Positions 4,479-29,370 of a stretch of DNA of 32,531 bases are shown here, piece by piece; within the stretch, counting starts at the first letter, position 1; each line of letters starts with the position of its first letter. The stretch is from Planoprotostelium fungivorum. Taxonomy: Eukaryota; Evosea; Variosea; Cavosteliida; Cavosteliaceae. The translations under genes and the position numbers were made by a program. Location: NCBI GenBank assembly GCA_003024175.1, contig MDYQ01000178.1, positions 1 to 32,531 of the forward strand, in the 5' to 3' direction. The notes under the pieces are model-generated. The model worked only from the letters and a program-made list of their open reading frames with translations, did no database searches and was not told where the DNA came from.

Positions 4479-7400
4479 ATGGAAGGGGATGATAAGAGTC
4501 CTCCCGAGGACGATCGAGAGCATCCTGGAGGTGATACGCTAGTTTCTGTGATGACTGACCGTGTTAGGATCTACGAAATCAGAAAGCCTTCTAGAAAAGG
4601 CGCGCCAAGTGTCCTTTTCACAGAGACTAGTGTTCTCATGGAGAGGGAGAAGAGGGAATGTCCAGAAGAGAGCCGTGGCATTTGGTGATGTAGACAACGA
4701 TGATGCCAAGGTAGAGCGACAAATCCTTTCGAATGGAACTGAGCCAACGGATAGGATCCAGAGTTGGTAGTAGGGACAACGGAAGGTCATTTGACCATCT
4801 TCAAAGGCTCACTCAAAGCTCCCTGGCGCATAGCCTCCAAGTTGGGAACCGTGAGAGATTCTTCATGTTATCAATCATCTTGCAACCCGATCTTGCATCA
4901 TCTTGATCGACACCTGCAGATCTCCTGTCTGGCCATCGGGAAGATTCATCCAAATTCAGATAAGGTGAAGTCACCGTGATGAATATGAAGAAACGAGCGA
5001 TTCACAGAACTCACTGATCGTCATCGCCAACGAGGGCTACGCTTTCATCTTTGACAATATGACACCTCTCAACAAAGGTTCCGCCACTAGCTTAGCTCAC
5101 AGAAACGCTGGAAAACTGTCTGGACCCCTTCGTCTCTCCACTTCTTCTCTCACAGGTGATCGTCTATGACTCATCGTGGATTGACACAGGCAGGTAGTTC
5201 ACCCCCGGCGGGCACACAGGGGATACCGGTGAACGCAGCGAATCCTTCCTTCATCGCACCCTCCATCATCAGCCGAGTGCCCATCAACATCACCAGCATC
5301 CTCATCGATGACATCGGTGAAGAGGAGGAGATGATCCATAGATTGACGAGAACAGATGGTGACGGAGAGAACGAGATTGTCATGGGAACGAACGATGGAG
5401 AAGTCCACATCTTCAATCTGAGAGGAATGGAGACGGTGCAGAGTCCCTCGCCGATGTTGAGTCAGCAGGAACCCTCTTCTACGTTTCAGAAGGTGGTGCA
5501 GTGTCTCTCTATCATCACGGAGATCATCAAGAAGTTCAGTGGAGGGAGGATACACACCGAAGAAGAGCAACTCCTCCTTACCATCAATCGCAGTCAGGAA
5601 TTCAAAGAGTTTGGTCTGTCGGTGAAAGAACTGCAGAACGTGAGATCGATCGATTGTATCTCCTCTGACGAGTGATGAAGGCCAGTCTCGATGCGGTGAG
5701 GAACGAAGAGATCTTACCCTTCCTCGTCAATCTTCACAATCTGTTGATGATCCACGCGACGATTTTATTCTCTGGACAGAGAGAGAGCCGTGTCAACTTC
5801 TTGAAGAGGGCAGTATACAACATAGGAGGTGAATCTACCGCACCTCCCCCACTGATCAAGACAGGGAGAGAGTTCTCTCTCTTAGAGTTGGACAGTCTGT
5901 TCATTCGAGGAAACAGTACGAGCACACCCAATCTATACGGTCAGTCACCTTATCATTCCTTATCCAATCGTGACGAATGTACAGGTTACGGTGGTCCACA
6001 GGGCCCAAAATTGAAGACGGACGATCCTAGAGGTGAGAAGAGAAGGAGAACCAATGAATCACCTTCGTTCAGGTCGATTCGTCAACACACGCGTAGAACC
6101 TCGAATCAACTTCACGCTGAATCTGGCCACCAAGTGAGAGGGAACGAAGGAGCGGAATGACACGCAGCAGGAGCTCACCCTCCATAAGGATCTACCACAC
6201 GAGCACGTGGCAGATGCAGATGGAAGAGGCCACGAGAGAGTATCTGAGGGAGAGGGTGGTCATCGACAGCACGAGGAAGACGGTGAGAGAGGAGAATGTA
6301 GAGAGAGTGATGTCTTCAGATCGTACTACCAAAGGTGATGGAGTGGTACTCTTCTGATTTCGGAAAGAATCGAGGAGAGGCCATCACGTGGGCCTTGAGG
6401 TATCTCAGAGCAGAGACGACCGATCAATATCGTGAAGATTACAATCTCAATTATGAGCCTTTCAGTTGGGATTTCTGCTTTCACATGGCCCTCCCAATGG
6501 TAGAGATGTCTCGTCTTACTCTTCTCACTAGTTCGCAGAATCGACAAGTCAGTGCACCACAGATCATGACTACGTCTCATAATACTCTCAATCCGAACAC
6601 ACCCACCAATATGACGTCCAGCCCACAGAATACAAACAGCTCCTACGGTAACTCACTCAAGAACCTTCTGGGTCTAACTCAGAAGAAGGAAGAAGTGAGA
6701 ATGATGAGAAGAAAAGATCTCAATGAATCACAGGAACCTCCAATACCTGATGCCAGGAGATCATCTGTGAATCTATCCTCCAAGAGTAACAACAGCGTCT
6801 CTTTTGATTCAAAGTCATCCCGAAGCAGTCTGAAGGGTCCACCGATCGAGATCGAGAACGCCAAGGAGAGATCGACGTTGGGACATTCAGCCCAACAGAA
6901 TGTCTCTGCACCCACTCGTGAATTGAACTTGAAGATGAAGAGATCGTTTCATCTGGACGGAGAGGTGGTCTACATGCTATCTCGGAGAGATCACGATGGA
7001 AAGATTCTTCAGGTGAGGGAATGAAAGGAGAGGAAATCTGATGGAGGGGAAACAGTTGGGGCTGTTCGACAAACAAGGACAGAATCGTATCGGCACCATA
7101 AGGCATCACGATCAAGTGAGAGAGACGACAACGTCGTCGGACTGATGTTTGTAGGTCCAACTGTGCCCCTATCAACTTTTGGGAAGCACGAAGAAGAATC
7201 AAACGGAAGGAAAGATCATCGATGTCGTCAACGTCTCTCATCAACCGGATCGACCAGCTCGATCCATCACATGCTACGATGATGGTGATCTCTCTGATCG
7301 AATCTTCTATCTACTCTCGAGTGGTGTCTGATTGAATCAGGACACTTGAGATTGACGGAGAACGACCGAACCTTGTGGGAGGTACGAGTAGATGCCGAGG

Positions 7401-8092
7401 TGCTTGGTGTGGGGGTGACTCATCACGTGAGTTGAATGATGGATGATGGATCTGAGAGAGATAGATGGTCAAAGAGAAGACGAGTGAAGAGCACATCGTG
7501 ACGGTGGGATGGGAGGGAACGACATTCATCATCGATCAAGAGGGGAACATGGTCTATCATGAGATGGAAGACAAGATCACCACCTTTGGTGTGGGTGGGT
7601 GTCCCCGTATCGTGTGAATACTGAGGAGAGGAGGGTTGTATTCTGTCGAGCCTGGGCAGCCCACATCGGCCATCGCTTACATCACGGGAACGGATGAGAT
7701 CATACTGTATTACGGAATCTGCTCTTCGTTGATGGTGAGTTCACTCTTAGTGCGATCTATTCAGATCACCTGTCGATCAAATGATGTAACATCCGTTCAG
7801 TCGATGAAGACGACAAACGTTAAGAATCTACTTCGTGAAGAGATGCAAGGGAGAGACCTCTTGAAGAAGAATCCACACTCGGGTGAGAAATCATGTTCAC
7901 CTTGAAGCTGTTCTCAATTGCTCGACAGAATGGAGCCACGAAGAGCTGGCGTCTCTCTATTACACGGCGATCAACTACGAGAAGCCAGAGGGTATCGACA
8001 AGTACAGAAAAGAATTGTTAGACAAGATCGAGAAATCAACGGGGGAGGTAAAGAAGCTGGAGGCGAAACTGATGAAGACACGACACGGATAA
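4479..8092 (+). CDS. ITFG2: ITFG2-like FG-GAP propeller protein with an inserted DUF547 domain
   Basis: In animals ITFG2 is a subunit of KICSTOR, which tethers GATOR1 to lysosomes in nutrient signalling. Eighteen phase-consistent exons give 946 residues, about twice human ITFG2: 4479-4530, 4568-4710, 4764-4850, 4920-4964, 5008-5155, 5194-5316, 5356-5639, 5681-6032, 6073-6133, 6168-6282, 6335-7012, 7056-7115, 7155-7284, 7341-7426, 7465-7594, 7634-7734, 7801-7882, 7929-8092. The N-half (residues 1-230) has QKRAVAFGDVDNDDAK, LVVGTTEGHLTIFKG and the FG-GAP calcium motif DIDGDGENEIVMGT. The C-half (about 675-890) has GGHLRLTENDRTLWEV, VGWEGTTFIID and SAIAYITGTDEIILYYG. Between them (about 260-500) sits a DUF547 domain: LPFLVNLHNLLMIHA, AVYNIGG, VEPRINFTLN, MEWYSSDF; then a Ser-rich linker (510-670). 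The tail is coiled-coil-like. A 45-nt in-frame segment at 5938-5982 (GTCAG..ACAG) could be a further intron. ITFG2 identity is firm; treating it as one gene rests on continuous splice phase. Confidence 0.88.
5540..6500 (+). other. DUF547 domain region inside the ITFG2 gene
   Basis: Exons 5356-5639 (3' part), 5681-6032, 6073-6133, 6168-6282 and the 5' part of 6335-7012 encode a recognisable DUF547 domain. It shows the typical order of motifs: an F/W-x-NL-x-N-LL-x-HA helix; a YNIGG turn followed by the FSLLELDSLFIRGN strand-helix; DPRG..RINFTLN; RSSPSIRIY; and MEWYSSDF near the end. DUF547 is common in plants, protists and bacteria; its biochemical activity is not established. I know of no described ITFG2 protein that contains it. 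Confidence 0.82.
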
Positions 8093-8094
8093 AT

Positions 8095-9838
8095 TTATCT
8101 CCTGTAACGGTATTTCTTGAATTGGAACCACAAGTGCAGTATTCCTCTCTCGAAATCACATCGAAAGCCCTTCTTGTGGGAGTGCTCCCATTCCTTCTTC
8201 ACCACAGTAAAACCAATGTCCTATCCCAGTCAGCCACTTGTTGTGGTGGTGACTCACCTCGTAGGGTGGTCCTGCGTGGAAGAGAATGAGAACGTAGTCG
8301 GGAGACTCTGCGGGGAGAATCTTGTAGCTGGGTGTCTTGGTGACATCGGCCAGATCAGGGTAGAAGATGTTGAACGTGTAGCCCAGAACAATCTTGGGTG
8401 GTGGGTTATCCTCTGTAAAGATTTAATATTTGATACTCTATCCTGATTGTAGAGAGAGGAGAGAGAGGAGAGAGGATGGATAGATCACCGTCATAGTGAG
8501 TCTGATTGTATCTGTTCCAATCGTGTCCCGTCTGCACTCGATTGAAGTATTTGGGTTTCCTGGCGACATAATCGTACGTCTTGTCTAGCTTGGTCTCCGT
8601 ATTGAATGCCTCTTCATCTTGCTCCATCACAATATTCGCCTGACCTCACGTCATCGGGAGAAGCGTTGAGAATCGATCGCATGACGTGTACAGAGATAGA
8701 AGAAGGAACTAGAGTAAGATCTCACCTCTCGTTTGAGCATCTCTTCATCTGTGGGTATCTTCTCTTCTCTGTTTCCCTGAGCCTTCGCTCTCAGTCTCTG
8801 TGCTTCTCTCTCTAACGCAGCCCTCCTCGGATCACTGTGGTGGTTATTTCGATGTGACGAACGTTTCTCTCACGGCTGTCTGGGGGTGGGAACGTATTCT
8901 TCGACGATATCGTCCTCGTTGTAGACAGACTCCACGGTCTTACCCTGCGGTGCGGTGGTGTCTCCCTTCAACTCTGCCAACTTGATCTTCGCCTTTCGAA
9001 CGCGAAGCTTCTTCAGGACAGAGTCCCAATATTCAGGGATGGCAGCTTCATCTCCATTCTGATTGTCTTCGATCTGTCTCTCCATGTCCACCAGCTCGTT
9101 GTAGTCCTTTCCTTCGAAGATACTCTTGATGTCCTTGCTGATGCTGTCATCGGCTGCATCCTTTCCTTCTCTGTCTTTCAACTGCGAGTGATCAGGGTCA
9201 CTGGTTCTGAAGCATGTCGTGGGATGTACACACCTTCTGTCTTTGGTTCTGGATGGTGGCTCTGAGAGCATCCCAGTAGATCTTTCCTCCTTCCTCGAGT
9301 GAACTGTACTTCTCTATGTTCGATTCCACTTCCTCTAATTCTTTCGGATTCAAGTTCTAAGGCTGTCGTCAGAGAGATGAGACGGTGGGCTTGGCTCACT
9401 TTGATGATCTGAAGTGCATCTTGGCGTATGGGGTACTGTGCGTCCTTATAGATTAGCTTGTATAACTTATCCAGTGGTTTCGCTCTTCCTTCCTTCAATC
9501 GAATTTGGATAGCCAGCATGTCCTGGTTTCTGAAGAATTGATTGTCTTTCTCCTCCCATTCGGCTACGTTGGCATTCTCTCGGTTTCTTACTTCTCTATC
9601 CTTCTGTCTCTCCCTCTCGTGGTGATTCGCCTCCCTCTCAACTCTTCTCCTCTTTACCTTATCGATCTCACTCTGTATTTTTTTATCAGCTCAACTCGTC
9701 AAACAAATAAACGATGAATAGTTACTTGTATGTCTTGCGCTCTTCTTCTCTGATCGTCAGCCGATAAGGAACCGGGCCTCTGTTGAGAATCTCTTTTGGT
9801 CCAAACGAACCGGTGATCGGTCGCTTGCCTCTATCCAT
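8095..9838 (-). CDS. CACTIN: Cactin, spliceosome-associated protein
   Basis: Cactin is a nuclear protein linked to the spliceosome and, in animals, to innate immune signalling. Eight exons, all phase-consistent, give 451 residues: 9726-9838, 9400-9670, 9234-9356, 8874-9181, 8726-8834, 8489-8639, 8258-8412, 8095-8220. The N-terminal half is charged and helical (VKRRRVEREANHHERERQ), followed by IRLKEGRAKPLDKLYKLIY, then the Cactin_mid region. The C-terminal domain is nearly textbook: RKPKYFNRVQTGHDWNRYNQ, PPPKIVLGYTFNIFYPDL, ILFHAGPPYEDIGF, ending HLWFQFKKYRYRR. The protein is shorter than animal cactins because it lacks the long RS/DE-rich N-terminus. Its stop codon is only 2 bp from the stop of the convergent ITFG2 gene. 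The first intron's acceptor must be the second AG (CAGAG) to keep frame. Confidence 0.95.
8450..8477. repeat. GAGAGAGG microsatellite-like tract in a CACTIN intron
   Basis: A purine tract of repeated GAGAGAGGA-type units lies inside intron 8413-8488; on the coding strand it is a CT-rich tract. No function is implied beyond a possible polypyrimidine role. Confidence 0.6.
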
Positions 9839-13191: not shown

Positions 13192-15778
13192 ATGAGCACA
13201 CCCGAGAAGCTGTTGTCCAGAGCCGATTCATTTGGAAAGGAGCTACAGAACATCTATACTGTTAGCCCTTTACGAACCAGAAAGGCTGTGGGCTCACCAA
13301 CGAAACTCTCATCTTCTTCAAATGAGGCCTCTCCACTCACACCTCGAAGATCTGCAGCTACCGACGTTCCACAACCAGAGTCGCTCCTGCAGTCGCCATC
13401 GAAGGCACCCGTCTCATTGTCGCCAAAGAGGCTGACTTCGTCTTTGGATTCTTCACCAAAGAGAAGAGGTGAGACGATCATCGAATATCGCACTTTTCGC
13501 ATTCTAACGCGGTACAGTGCATAACATCCGCTCACACGCGGCAGTAAAAGAAGCCCTGGAGAGCACCGATTTCGACGACACACCTTCCGGGGGAGAATCA
13601 CCGAGAACATCATCAACGATAACAAAGCGGACGTACAGAAGCTCTTCGGATATCTCTCTTCACTCAACAACGTCACTGCATTCTACCGTTAGCTCCATAT
13701 CCACACCAAGACGGCTGGTAAATATAGATAGAACATCCTCAGATCTGAATTCCTTCAGGCGAACAAAGATATCCAAGCTGTCGAGAAGCTAGCCGCCCAC
13801 ATAGAGTCTAACGCTGACGAACACATTTACACTTCCACATTAAATTCAAACTGGCAAGCAGAAGAGATCTGCAGGTGGGCCTCACGTGCTCATGAAAGTC
13901 CTTAAGCGATCTAGAATGCTTCAACAAGGAGAAACGAATCTCGACAATTATAATGTGAGAAGCTGCTGTGCGGCGCTTCTGCTACTGGCTGAGAATTTTT
14001 CTGGTTTCATCTCCACGGACCTGGCTCAGCGCATCAATAATTGCGATAAGAAGAGAATCAAAGAGAAACATATAGAATCCTCCGTGAGACCTCACGCCTG
14101 GGGTATGTTTCACCGTGTCACCGTCAACTAACCTTTTTAGATTTTTGGTTCACCATTTTGAATCACTTCCAACGGTTAGCGGAGAGGAATTTAGTGCCGG
14201 TAACGAGATGTTGTCTTGTATTAAGCCGCGCGGTTAAAGCGGCTAAGGAAAAGATTCAGTCATCCAAGAAGCAACTTTCGCCTGAAGAGGCTAGGAAGAA
14301 GCAATACCACGATGCTCTCAGCCAATACGTCAAAAAACAGACGGACGGAGGATCAAATGAGGATTCTATTTGGGAATGGGAGAACGTGAGTAACAATCGT
14401 TGATGTCGCTTCACGATTTAATTGTGATACATGATGACTTGCAGATACTGGTGGTGGAAGATCTTTTCCTCGTGAAATCTCTGTTGAGCAGAGCTGCGTA
14501 CGAAGAGTTACCACTTCTTGTGGATGGATTAGTCTATTGTTTCGATGCCAAGGGTATATCCATGGCTCTAATAGAGGACATGCTCGTCTGCGAAATCGAT
14601 CTCCACAGTGAGTGAATGCTTATGGATATCATTGATTGAACGTGGAAGGCGATCCCCTGGATCTGTTCAAGAATGAGACGAGATGCACCCACATGTTGGC
14701 TGCCTTCTCTAAACTCTATGCAAATCCATTCGTAACGTCTTGTCTGTCCAGCTCTGTAGAACACATCATAGCCAGCTACAAAAAGTTCCAGGTGATAACA
14801 ATATTCGCCTTGGCAATCGTCGTCATCTCACTCGGCTTCACAGTCCGACGAGGATAGAGCTTCGGATGAGATGGCCCCACTGAAAAGTGCTAAGACGGTG
14901 ACGAGAGATCAGCTGATGGAGGCCACAGCACAATCAATCTTCGATCAGATGTCAGCCAACAGCAGTCTCTTCCCCGAACCAATGCGACACCTATGCAGTT
15001 TGATTCGAAGTTGTGTGGAAAAGAAGTTCCCTGGAGGATCTTTTCATTCCTTAACGCATTTCGCCATTCGAAGGATGTTGGCACCAGTCATAAGGAACCC
15101 TGCCTCTTGTCCAGGCCTTTTAAAGGGTGAACGCCTTATCCACGCTACCATTCATAGCTCCTTTATTGTGCCTGATGATAGTACAGCTCCGATTGCCCAA
15201 CGTCAACAGAACGCTCTAAAGAATGTTGCGAAGGCTTTAGAAGATTACTCGGACAAACTTCTTGCCACTATAGAACCCGATCTGGGTGCCACCCTTGGAA
15301 TGAGTTTATCTGCTAGATCTGCTCTCTCTAACGACCAACGACCCGCCAGACTCTTGATCAATTTTTTGAAGAGCATCACAACACCAACGCGGTCTTACAT
15401 CTCCATTGTAGACGTTAACATGCGATTGGCTGCACTGGAGAATACCTTGAAGGTATTTCGAAGGAAAGTGGTTCACGTGGTGAAAGACTTTGAGACGCCA
15501 GAAGAGAAGATTCCACTGGAAGAAGACAAGGTGAACAAGAATAATGGTGATCGAGACTGAAGAGGAAGGTTTATCTCTTCTTGGAAAGCATCATGAAGAG
15601 GAGGGTGACGGAGGTGAAGAGGCGACCGGCCAGTATGACAGTATCGCCATCTCTACTGTATGCTGCGCCTCATTCTCCCTCTTTAACACCCTTTCTGAGA
15701 TCTCATCACGACCTTAAGAAGATGTCGCTTCCTGAGGCTTCATTCTCCTTCGAGGAGAATTTGACGGGAGGACTATAA
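13192..15778 (+). CDS. RasGAP-domain protein lacking the canonical arginine finger
   Basis: Contains a Ras GTPase-activating-protein domain. Nine phase-consistent exons give 742 residues: 13192-13468, 13518-13717, 13759-13874, 13915-14102, 14141-14385, 14445-14607, 14649-14791, 14844-15530, 15569-15778. Residues 1-160 are Ser/Pro/Thr-rich with many SP sites and look disordered. A helical region follows, then the RasGAP domain (about 385-620): CEIDLHSDPLDLFKNETRC, MLAAFSKLYANPFVTSCL, PEPMRHLCSLI, EKKFPGG and FAIRRMLAPVIRNP (residues 517-526; matches the FLR..NPAI block). At the arginine-finger position (LFRxN in active RasGAPs) the protein has Lys404 (LFKNE). The C-terminus is Ser/Pro-rich. 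Ras GAP activity is therefore doubtful; an IQGAP-like binding role is possible. Family membership is clear, subfamily unknown. Confidence 0.88.
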
Positions 15779-15869: not shown

Positions 15870-17083
15870 TCAATCGACGTCATCAGTTGGTAGATCCTCT
15901 TCGTTACCCTCAGAAGGCATCGGACTCCCAGAGAGGAGTGAAGGGCTTGCCATATTCATACCACCCATCGGTGGACCATTGCCCATGAGAGATTGCAGGA
16001 GACCAGAGAACATGTTGTTCGGTGCTGCTCGAGGTGGTCTGATCTTGTAGAAGTTGAATCCGATCTGGTCTAGATACTATCATCTCATCAGCCATCCATT
16101 CATCTTATCGCGAGGAAAGTGAATGCATCGTATTTCATCTGATGAATCACCTCGTCAAATGTATCGTCTCTGTCCAAAGAAGGTTGATAGACCTTTCTCA
16201 GCTTCTGGAAGAGAGGAGCCGCCTCTCTCTCCAAGGTGCATAAGAGGAAACGAATAAAGTTGATGAGGGGTGTTGTGGGGCACGTCTCGATGAAAGATGT
16301 GAAGACGACGTTGGCATCCTTGAGGTTACCCTCTGCTAGATATTGTAACACGGCACGAGCGATGTAAAGATCTTTTTCGCTGGAATACCCTGAATGTCGT
16401 AAGATGATGTGGAACACACGATGGAGATCGTGATGCGAAGATGTACGAATGTTACCATTGCTGGACCATTCGCTCAACATGTTGGCAAAGTCCCGCGGTG
16501 AGTCAGAGTGTAAGAAGTACTTTTGCGATTTCTCATATCTCTTCCACCTCTGTGCATCTTTCGCGAATAGAGTGTAGAGTCTTGGATCCCCTTTCGGATA
16601 CTTTTTCTTTGTCCATCTGTCTTCTCGTCAACATTGGATATGACCTCATGTTGTCACACTTGAGCGCGGTGACGGCAAATGAATCTTTAGCTTTCCTAAC
16701 TTCTTCATCTTCCTTCACCTCTGTACCACTGACACTCTTTTGTTTCTCGTCGAACAAAGAGAACAGTTGACTCAGTCTGTCGACAGCATCGTCGTCAACG
16801 GGGTGATGGGTTTCACTGTACGTCTGTATCAACAGATTGGATAGATCGGCTCCTTCGTTGACGTGTCCGTGTTGCAACATTACTGAAGCACCACCGAATA
16901 AGAGCTCATATACCTGATCGTATTTGCCACGATTCTTGTGCCTATGAGTCGCTCAGACATCAACTTCGCACGGATTTACCTGAAGTAAAGTGTTTTGATC
17001 ATCTGTTGCGCTTCGTAGTAGTTTCCATCCTTCACGTTAGCCTCCAACCGTTTGAGAACATTGTCTATCCTTGCATCTCCCAT
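15870..17083 (-). CDS. GET4: GET4 (TRC35), tail-anchored protein targeting factor
   Basis: Cytosolic GET/TRC-pathway subunit that, with GET5/UBL4A, delivers tail-anchored proteins to GET3. Five phase-consistent exons give 330 residues: 16980-17083, 16660-16941, 16456-16616, 16151-16389, 15870-16076. The alpha-solenoid shows the family pattern: VKDGNYYEAQQMIKTLYFR near the N-terminus, HGHVNEGADLSNLLIQTY, KYFLHSDSPRDFANMLSEW, SSEKDLYIARAVLQYL, ANVVFTSFIE, LINFIRFLLCTLER and YQPSLDRDDTFDEYLDQIGFNFY. The tail is Met/Gly/Pro-rich and acidic at the end. It shares a 72-bp intergenic region with the divergent MYDGF-like gene. Confidence 0.95.
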
Positions 17084-20255: not shown

Positions 20256-21527
20256 TTACTCTTTATGTTCAAATTCGGTATCTAACACGTGCTGTAACTG
20301 TCCAGAGGACATGGGAATGATGTAAGAAGGAACGTCCTTGTCGTTTCTGACCACAAAAACTCTGTGATCAAAGAATTCCGTCAAGTGTGAGCGGAACGAA
20401 GCCTCGTTTGCCACCAGAAATTTCTCCTTGCACTTTTGATAGAAGAGACTGTAAGGCAACCCTCCTTCTTCTCCCTCATCCATCGTCAGCGTCGTCATCA
20501 TCATTCGGCTCACCGATTCGATTTGTTGCTGTGCCAGGATGTGAAAGATCTTCCTTCCGTTCTGCGTCAGACTGCGCAAGATGTATCTCAGACCGTTCAT
20601 GTGGATGTCTTTGTCACTGGTGGTGGTGTTATGAATGACACTGTCTGAATCTGTCGTCTCTTGTAGATAATGTTCAAAGGTACTGGCCTCGTACCACACC
20701 CAACGAAAGCCTTCCAACATCTCTGCATCCCATCCTGTTTGGAATGAATTCCTCTCAATGCAGTTTGACTTCACCAGTCATTCCTTGGTAATGATCGATG
20801 GATGCGATGACAGTGAGGTTAGTGATGGCAGCCAGAAGACTCAGACGGTTCTGATCGGCCCAGTTCTCAATGGCCCTTCCGTCTATGCTGTGGACCAGGA
20901 GACGCAACTTCCTCTCTCTGTTTGCCATTGCACTGCGTATTCTCGATAACTGTTCCAGTGGTGTACCTGAGGCACTGATGTGTAAAACTTGGTTGAGGAC
21001 GATCTGAAGGATCTGTTCGGGTCATGACGGAGCTCATTACTCTGTTGAATACCACACCTGACGAGTGTCTGCTGTTGGTGTGTATCCGTTGAAGACAATC
21101 CAATCGTGCTCGTCGCTGTTCTCTTGGCAGTAATCCACGAAATTTTCGAGCAGCTGATGTTTCGAGCCCCAACCGTAGACCATCACATTATTACCCATCG
21201 TCAACTGTATATTCCATTCTTCGAATTGATGGTTGAGATGTTGCAGTGTCTGCTGGCGACGGTTGATTACTGATTGTTGTGATTGTATGATGACCTCTCG
21301 CAACTGCTGGGATTGAGACAAGTTGAGATTGTATTCTTTATCACCTGTTTCGCGGAGAGGATTTCAGATCTCGTTAGGGTGGCGTCCGAGGTCCGTGAAT
21401 TGGTTCCTTCTCATGTCAACGCGTTCGACTTTTTAGACACACCTTGTATGTTGAAATAGTCATTCTTTTCTGATTCTTCGTCAGAGACATAGATCTCATC
21501 CATCTGAAGGGTCCTCATTTTTGACAT
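20256..21527 (-). CDS. ORC2: Origin recognition complex subunit 2
   Basis: ORC2 is part of the complex that marks replication origins and loads the MCM helicase. Four phase-consistent exons, 21443-21527, 21058-21344, 20775-21012 and 20256-20734, give 362 residues. Landmarks: MVYGWGSKHQLLENFVDYC (AAA+-like core, family YGxGSKxxLL motif), WIVFNGYTP, LLVHSIDGRAIENW, LTVIASIDHYQ, GFRWVWYEASTFEHYLQET and ILRSLTQNGRKIFHIL; then the winged-helix domain with FYQKCKEKFLVANEASFRSH and LTEFFDHRVFVVR. It is much shorter than animal ORC2 (about 577 residues) because the N-terminal disordered region is nearly absent. Start codons of ORC2 and the divergent eIF4E gene are 53 bp apart. Confidence 0.95.
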
Positions 21528-28426: not shown

Positions 28427-28975
28427 TCATCTTTCAAAATTGGATTTTCCTCCTGTTTTAGATAGAAGTACGGTTTCCCTTATGACTATGTCGTGTGAAA
28501 TAGCCTTGCACATGTCATAGATGGTCAGGGCAGTTATTGTAGAAGCAGTGAGAGCCTCCATCTCTACACCCGTTTTGTGTGTAACCCCCACAACGGCCTC
28601 TATCACCAAGGTACCTTCATTCTTGAGTTCGATCGTGATGTCACACTGTTCAATTGGCAGAGGATGGCAAAATGGGATCAAATCGGCTGTTTTCTTTGCT
28701 GCCATAGTTCCTGCGATGACAGCAGTGGCGAAAACTGGCCCCTTGGGAGCCAGGATCTCTCCTCGGTTCAAATTCTGATACACTGAGGCAGGGAGCTGCA
28801 TGATCGTTCTTGCTCGTGCGATTCTTTTGGTAGCTGCCTTATGAGCAACATCGACCATCGCAGGTTGTCCCCTATGATCCACGTGCGTGAAGTCAGATAT
28901 GTTTCTGAGAGAAGCTCTTCCCCGAGGAAGCCCTGAGGAGCATAGTGCGTGTCCTATTCTGTTCCAGCAAAGCAT
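28427..28975 (-). CDS. MoaC, cyclic pyranopterin monophosphate synthase (molybdenum cofactor)
   Basis: Converts the MoaA product (3',8-cyclo-dihydro-GTP) to cyclic pyranopterin monophosphate, an early step of molybdenum cofactor synthesis. A single uninterrupted reading frame of 182 residues. Landmarks: FTHVDHRGQPAMVDVAHKA at the start of the MoaC domain; KTADLIPFCHPLPIEQC with the catalytic His region; GVEMEALTAS; and IYDMCKAISHDI with the conserved Asp and Lys, ending LLSKTGGKS. Residues 1-28 (MLCWNRIGHALCSSGLPRGR..) are basic with no acidic residue and could be a mitochondrial targeting peptide. It stands alone, not fused to a MoaA/MOCS1A domain within this window, and it is the only protein gene here without introns. 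Confidence 0.96.
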   Translation of the reverse strand: MLCWNRIGHALCSSGLPRGRASLRNISDFTHVDHRGQPAMVDVAHKAATKRIARARTIMQLPASVYQNLNRGEILAPKGPVFATAVIAGTMAAKKTADLIPFCHPLPIEQCDITIELKNEGTLVIEAVVGVTHKTGVEMEALTASTITALTIYDMCKAISHDIVIRETVLLSKTGGKSNFER

Positions 28976-29370
28976 TACGCAACGTCGATCGATGATCCGT
29001 TTTGTGTTTCCCCATCAATAAATATTGGTATATACGAATATTTATTCTCAAAATTTTGCCGATTTATGCAGGAATGCCTTGATTGGGAGGGCCAAAAGTT
29101 TCCAACGTCAGACGCGGCAGGATGTTTTGACCTATGGAATGCGCTCATATTCCACCTTATTGTGGTCGTTTTTGGGTCAGCTGTGGTGAACACTTGTGGT
29201 GAAGAGGCTTACAGTGCATACGATAATATACAGAGACACTACTTACAGCGTGAACAGACGGAGTCGAGGAACTGTGTATAGTTGCAGCAGCTCACTTTCA
29301 TAACACGTACTCTCATCAGCAAAGCAACAGACAACGCTAACAAACAACGTCAACAAATAACAACTGAACC
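28976..29370. other. Intergenic region between MoaC and the MULE gene, with AT palindrome
   Basis: 395 bp between divergent starts. No coding region is recognisable. It contains a near-perfect 30-bp palindrome listed separately; the rest shows no repeat I can identify as a transposon terminal inverted repeat. Confidence 0.55.
29017..29046. repeat. 30-bp near-perfect AT-rich palindrome
   Basis: Arms AATAAATATT (29017-29026) and AATATTTATT (29037-29046) are exact reverse complements, and the 10-nt centre GGTATATACG contains its own palindrome GTATATAC. Only two of the 30 positions break symmetry. It could form a cruciform or act as a dimer-binding site or as part of a mobile-element end. Confidence 0.85.

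Follow-up and report, generated by a model that had tools for sequence, protein, structure and literature searches.

The gene at positions 4479..8092 (+ strand) of the window, by which we mean the whole 32,531-nucleotide stretch of Planoprotostelium fungivorum DNA that was analysed, is confirmed, at the level of the predicted protein, as the Planoprotostelium orthologue of ITFG2 with an internal and complete DUF547 unit. A preliminary description of this DNA had assigned the motifs of an ITFG2 N-half (GDVDND, DIDGDG), of DUF547 and of an ITFG2 C-half (GHLRLTENDRTLWEV, VGWEGTTFIID) to one gene. All of them do lie in a single splice-compatible frame, and a Pfam HMM search, suggested at the time as a check, found Itfg2 and DUF547 both above cut-off in one product. 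Judged from sequence and within the searches made, this is a real and undescribed architecture of a known family.

Gene model, ITFG2 halves and junctions

The gene model was made by hand from the DNA letters and the stop-to-stop frames, with Pfam matches along it. It holds the complete coding region in 19 exons with zero internal stops, and its 18 introns are all GT-AG and 37–69 bp long. Three of the introns named in the preliminary description (5317–5355, 5640–5680 and 7013–7055) were kept. The fourth, 6283–6334, was corrected to 6283–6319, by which the motif IVLPKVMEWY is retained; acceptor 6334 was not adopted, as it would cut IVLPK out of this family motif. Beyond these four, the rebuilt model has five introns before 5317, three within 5940–6170 and six past 7055, and the product, formerly put at 946 residues, has 933 or 934. 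These two lengths reflect intron 10 (6134..6170, +), where the splice model and an alignment by eye reveal a tandem acceptor, CAGCAG, at 6165–6170. The second AG (acceptor 6170) yields 933 residues and the stretch LATKSSPSIRIY, the spacing of which matches, by eye, LGTKHSPRIRVF of the PTEN-like locus described below; the first AG (acceptor 6167) shortens the intron to 34 bp and adds one residue, giving 934. Two products, one residue apart inside a conserved DUF547 motif, are thus possible.

On the 934-residue version, the Itfg2 profile (PF15907) scores 120.7 bits (E 1e-34; Pfam cut-off 27) in two stretches flanking DUF547, and the score rises slightly, to 124.2 bits, when the insert is omitted. 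The N-half, with its FG-GAP-like repeats, covers aa 1–221 (4479..5426, +; exons 1–6 and the start of exon 7; Pfam and phmmer) and by itself scores 59.2 bits over aa 78–218 (profile 2–104; cut-off 27). The C-half, aa 654–933 (6923..8089, +), was assigned by the Itfg2 profile and by phmmer to human ITFG2; it scores 67.5 bits by itself (profile 197–328 of 330; cut-off 27) in a scan that began four residues upstream, and matches human ITFG2 with E 4e-12.

The whole product was matched by phmmer to the human ITFG2 chains in the PDB (9o5a_G, E 1.7e-29; 25ge_B, E 3.5e-29), and with the insert left out the E value for human ITFG2 is about 1e-30, as against about 1e-29 with it. The human protein, as represented by 9o5a chain G and 25ge chain B, shares FG-GAP-like repeats and block order with the Planoprotostelium protein. 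Thus, three blocks (aa 24–129, 182–219 and 743–875) are collinear, the middle one scoring weakly when taken alone (11.6 bits, phmmer). What differs is the spacing of the second and third blocks, which are 120 residues apart in the human chain and 523 in the Planoprotostelium protein. The extra length, about 400 residues, is placed after the third FG-GAP-like repeat. Human ITFG2, at 447 residues, would not accommodate DUF547, whereas the Planoprotostelium protein holds it. The region from the end of the linker to aa 742 gave no significant alignment to human ITFG2, even with the insert removed.

Both transitions between ITFG2 and DUF547 take place inside exons. Exon 7 (5356..5639, +), which is free of stops in translation, opens with the third FG-GAP-like repeat DGDGENEIVMGTNDGEVHIFNLRG, ending the N-half, and leads, with no intron between, straight to the beginning of the DUF547 unit; the other two forward frames contain 3 and 1 stops. 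The second junction is in exon 12 (6320..7012, +; 231 stop-free codons), in which the last part of DUF547, IVLPKVMEWYSSDFG, is followed by a polar linker and then by the start of the C-half, LNLKMKRSFHLDGEVVYML, and where the other two forward frames contain 14 and 11 stops. Frames of at least 237 codons from stop to stop, the length of the exon-12 frame, number 2 in the window; 60 first-order Markov sequences averaged 0.07, with 2 as the highest count. Because that maximum is also 2, the open length of exon 12 is not decisive by itself, and it is the Pfam matches that decide.

The insert is, on its predicted sequence, a complete DUF547 unit, in which similarity to bacterial proteins begins ahead of the Pfam core and extends as far as the last aromatic motif. 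The core (5693..6246, +, introns included) scores 66.7 bits with PF04784 on the 934-residue product (E 2.4e-18; cut-off 27) and covers profile positions 3–125 of 125; its stretch 5693–5914 was also picked up by the genome-wide profile scan. The extended unit, delimited by blastp, occupies aa about 261–503 of the 934-aa version and reaches the aromatic motif YEPFSW (5544..6469, +, introns included). In blastp against a set of 80 sequences, the insert is 25% identical to bacterial L057 over 258 columns (E 2e-20) and 24% identical to L016 over 241 columns (E 4e-18). The linker that follows (6482..6922, +) has 147 residues, 41% of them S, T, N or Q, and includes RRSSVNLSS, which we take to be a basophilic-kinase-like, putative phosphorylation stretch.

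The structure of the junctions bears on two alternatives in which the cell would make an ordinary ITFG2 or the assembly would be at fault. If the roughly 1.4 kb containing DUF547 were skipped in the RNA, or were a nested separate gene, a normal ITFG2 would be produced, and GT and AG dinucleotides do occur within exons 7 and 12. Both junctions are, however, open and exon-internal, which makes both a nested separate gene and a simple error of splice modelling improbable; a 1.4-kb intron would also be exceptional beside the other introns of the gene. Taken together, we regard this alternative as highly improbable. Harder still to credit is an assembly chimera of two genes, one for ITFG2 and one for DUF547, since it would have to exit ITFG2 in frame and re-enter it in frame with the remaining gene in order, and the flanking parts keep collinearity with human ITFG2; we give it almost no weight.

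Elsewhere in the window, a converging cactin gene follows (8159–8422, −; Pfam CactinC_cactus, 67.1 bits), and a RasGAP domain lies at 14799–15557 (+; 29.8 bits, cut-off 28.3), separate from the RasGAP that lies near DUF547 at the locus L129 described below. GET4 (16103–16627, −), ORC2 (20259–20777, −) and MoaC (28430–29014, −), all assigned by Pfam, are ordinary neighbours.

DUF547 residues, fold and other loci

The embedded domain was compared with a bacterial set of at least 115 stretches from at least 80 loci (L013–L092), collected with the pattern F-W-x-N-x-Y-N-A, the letters of which are invariant in the set by construction. A few of the 80 bacterial open reading frames are short or may be chance matches (e.g. 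L015, L082, L083 and L085), and all were kept in the counts. The alignment used for folding, A1, covers 34 of the 80 loci and all of its members carry both cysteines, for which reason residues were counted on all 80. In one alignment with L016 numbering, and among the matches listed, E136 occurs in 72 of 80 loci, H173 in 73, C178 in 64 and C183 in 65; all four residues occur together in 64 of 80. The two cysteines co-vary, again among the matches listed: 64 of the 80 bacterial loci have both, 11 have neither and 5 have a gap in place of one or both. On the evidence of the alignment, such paired gain and loss would suit a disulphide or metal pair.

At these four positions the embedded DUF547 has D, N, L and S, and the bacterial set is therefore absent from it. 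The domain retains R141, P184, W228, D232, F233 and W273, and it also has F89, N92 and N95, positions that the search pattern fixed. The E/H/C/C set is no condition of PF04784 membership. We infer that any catalysis the bacterial domains may perform is not shared by the embedded one.

The fold was of little further help. A PDB sequence search with the DUF547 region returned nothing significant (best E 0.69). The structure model of bacterial L016 has a mean pLDDT of 86.0 and a pTM of 0.83, and none of its 17 listed PDB matches in Foldseek reached E<=0.001. In VIA-align, over 113 chains, the best Z was 2.6 (rmsd 5.7, 155 aligned), and we did not believe weak fold relatives such as SAMD9, which has that Z. 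With the model lacking a clear PDB match, the fold gives neither a readable function nor a transferable pocket.

In the Planoprotostelium assembly (36.9 Mb, 471 contigs), the genome scan for DUF547 gave 8 matches on 6 contigs, including the contig of the ITFG2/DUF547 gene. One of them, on contig C343 (27.8 bits, 2 internal stops), was not reproduced at E<=0.001 on read-through frames and was left uncounted; a GRAM-like stretch spotted by eye at L004 had no Pfam match and was dropped. Three of the four other DUF547 loci sit downstream of PTEN-like, RasGAP or DENN sequences. At L128 (G000:C53:28500-34500), a hand-joined PTEN-like phosphatase (DSPc, 37.7 bits) and PTEN_C2 (30.8 bits) precede a DUF547 that scored 28.1 bits in the genome scan and 23.6 bits on rescan, under the cut-off of 27. 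At L129, RasGAP (56.9 bits) precedes DUF547 (50.5 bits) by about 1.5 kb, and at L130 DENN (48.7 bits) precedes DUF547 (29.5 bits) by about 3.2 kb. At L131 the DUF547 scores 61.3 bits; a bromodomain match some 3 kb upstream of it was provisionally assigned to a separate gene. The order at L128, PTEN-like, PTEN_C2 and then DUF547, agrees with that in print for Entamoeba PTEN, and tubulin matches lie upstream at this locus. From this adjacency and the published precedents, DUF547 may be joined to the PTEN-like, RasGAP and DENN sequences in candidate single genes. In this genome DUF547 is thus found alongside sequences that regulate small GTPases and phosphoinositides. At all four loci both cysteines are absent by eye (at L131 also in its aligned copy, L002), and by eye the histidine is kept at L129 and L131 and missing at L128 and L130.

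A proposed built-in module of KICSTOR

ITFG2 belongs to KICSTOR, and it is through this complex that the Rag GAP GATOR1 is recruited to the lysosome (PMC11836306). KICSTOR was described as vertebrate-specific in one paper (PMC10957897) and was later reported in early-diverging fungi (PMC11836306). In a genome scan of Planoprotostelium, KICS2 (PF09404) is present as one stretch (30.5 bits, cut-off 22), together with NPRL2 (best stretch 54.2 bits, cut-off 27.5) and IML1/DEPDC5 (151.3 bits, cut-off 26.2). ITFG2 and KICS2 hence co-occur in a non-vertebrate despite the vertebrate-specific label. For ITFG2 itself, the scan with PF15907 gave one match, 7486–7719, in parts of exons 16–17 of the present gene. 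Since these scans go exon by exon and this one missed the gene's other exons, a second, diverged ITFG2 copy is possible. From its homology, the ITFG2/DUF547 product is presumably a KICSTOR subunit, and a link of DUF547 to TORC1 is suggested by that homology and by the KICS2 and GATOR1 genes in the genome.

We think it reasonably probable that the product is a KICSTOR subunit with a built-in, non-catalytic DUF547 binding module that serves recruitment or, perhaps, ligand sensing. In such a protein, the ITFG2 propeller would extrude the DUF547 unit at the point where its third FG-GAP-like repeat gives way to the following propeller segment, and would still close round it and pair with the KICSTOR partners; closure of the two halves into one propeller is suggested by the collinearity of the flanks with human ITFG2. 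The polar linker would lend the domain reach and a possible phosphorylation stretch in RRSSVNLSS. The module might act as a binding or recruitment surface that adds an input point to KICSTOR, whether by localising KICSTOR with GATOR1 at a membrane site or by linking them to a further input. A recruitment role may be proposed by analogy with the loci at which DUF547 lies beside PTEN-like, RasGAP and DENN sequences. The preliminary description spoke of an enzyme-like or scaffold domain inserted into ITFG2. The internal position is supported and 'scaffold' agrees with the data; 'enzyme-like' fits less, in view of D, N, L and S. 'Inserted' implies a gain, and the alternative, with one species compared, is that DUF547 may have been lost from animal ITFG2.

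Two other roles were weighed against this module. An active enzyme delivered to KICSTOR would agree with the full-length profile match and with the retention of F89, N92, N95, R141, P184, W228, D232, F233 and W273, although the first three are fixed by the pattern. Yet E, H, C and C, found together in 64 of 80 bacterial loci among the matches listed, are replaced in the module by D, N, L and S, which makes an active enzyme unlikely; five Planoprotostelium DUF547 loci lack both cysteines, four of them judged by eye only, and to our knowledge the family has no assigned activity. We accord such an enzyme very little probability. A nutrient sensor that binds a ligand deserves more attention: DUF547 would then be an erstwhile enzyme that a propeller loop in the TORC1 pathway took over, in the manner argued for Unmet, Sestrin and CASTOR with GATOR2. 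For this reading there is the precedent of the GATOR2 loops (PMC10957897); the insert does interrupt the series of repeats in a propeller protein of KICSTOR, and conserved polar residues have been lost from it. On the other hand, the bacterial DUF547 model has no PDB match in Foldseek at E<=0.001 from which a pocket could be transferred, and the proximity of its paralogues to PTEN-like, RasGAP and DENN sequences points to binding of a more general kind, so that we view this sensor as possible but rather unlikely. Its sharper form, in which the degenerate DUF547 in the KICSTOR propeller loop responds to a metabolite or membrane lipid and sets GATOR1 recruitment, is a little more doubtful; were it true, a TORC1 input would be wired covalently in this lineage, with no detachable sensor.

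For the non-catalytic binding module that we favour, as for the sensor, the location of DUF547 inside a nutrient-signalling subunit ties the domain to a measurable readout, namely GATOR1 localisation and TORC1 activity. The architecture thereby offers a new route to ask what role DUF547 plays in growth control.

Comparison with known systems

In the literature searched, we found no paper joining DUF547 with ITFG2 and none joining it with 'DEP domain', nor did a paper on the structure of KICSTOR come up. DUF547 has, however, been noted in other signalling proteins. EhPTEN1 of Entamoeba histolytica carries it in a C-terminal extension (PMC9122207, where the text prints DUF457 and a figure legend DUF547). 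Like EhPTEN1, Planoprotostelium combines a PTEN-like locus with DUF547; unlike EhPTEN1, in which the domain is C-terminal, Planoprotostelium ITFG2 has it within another domain. An Oxytricha protein carries DENN and DUF547 (PMC5940158) and so resembles the pairing at L130, but the partner is not ITFG2. The bacterial homologues L016 and L057 are similar to the embedded domain across most of the unit, and the difference lies in E, H, C and C, kept by these two proteins and absent here.

A parallel in concept comes from GATOR2, the variable propeller loops of which are argued (PMC10957897) to have captured former enzymes as nutrient sensors, namely Unmet, Sestrin and CASTOR. As a model, the Planoprotostelium protein would resemble these in having an enzyme-derived fold joined to a propeller of the pathway. 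The difference is one of linkage: Unmet, Sestrin and CASTOR are separate proteins that bind GATOR2, whereas the DUF547 of Planoprotostelium is predicted to be part of the ITFG2 chain itself.
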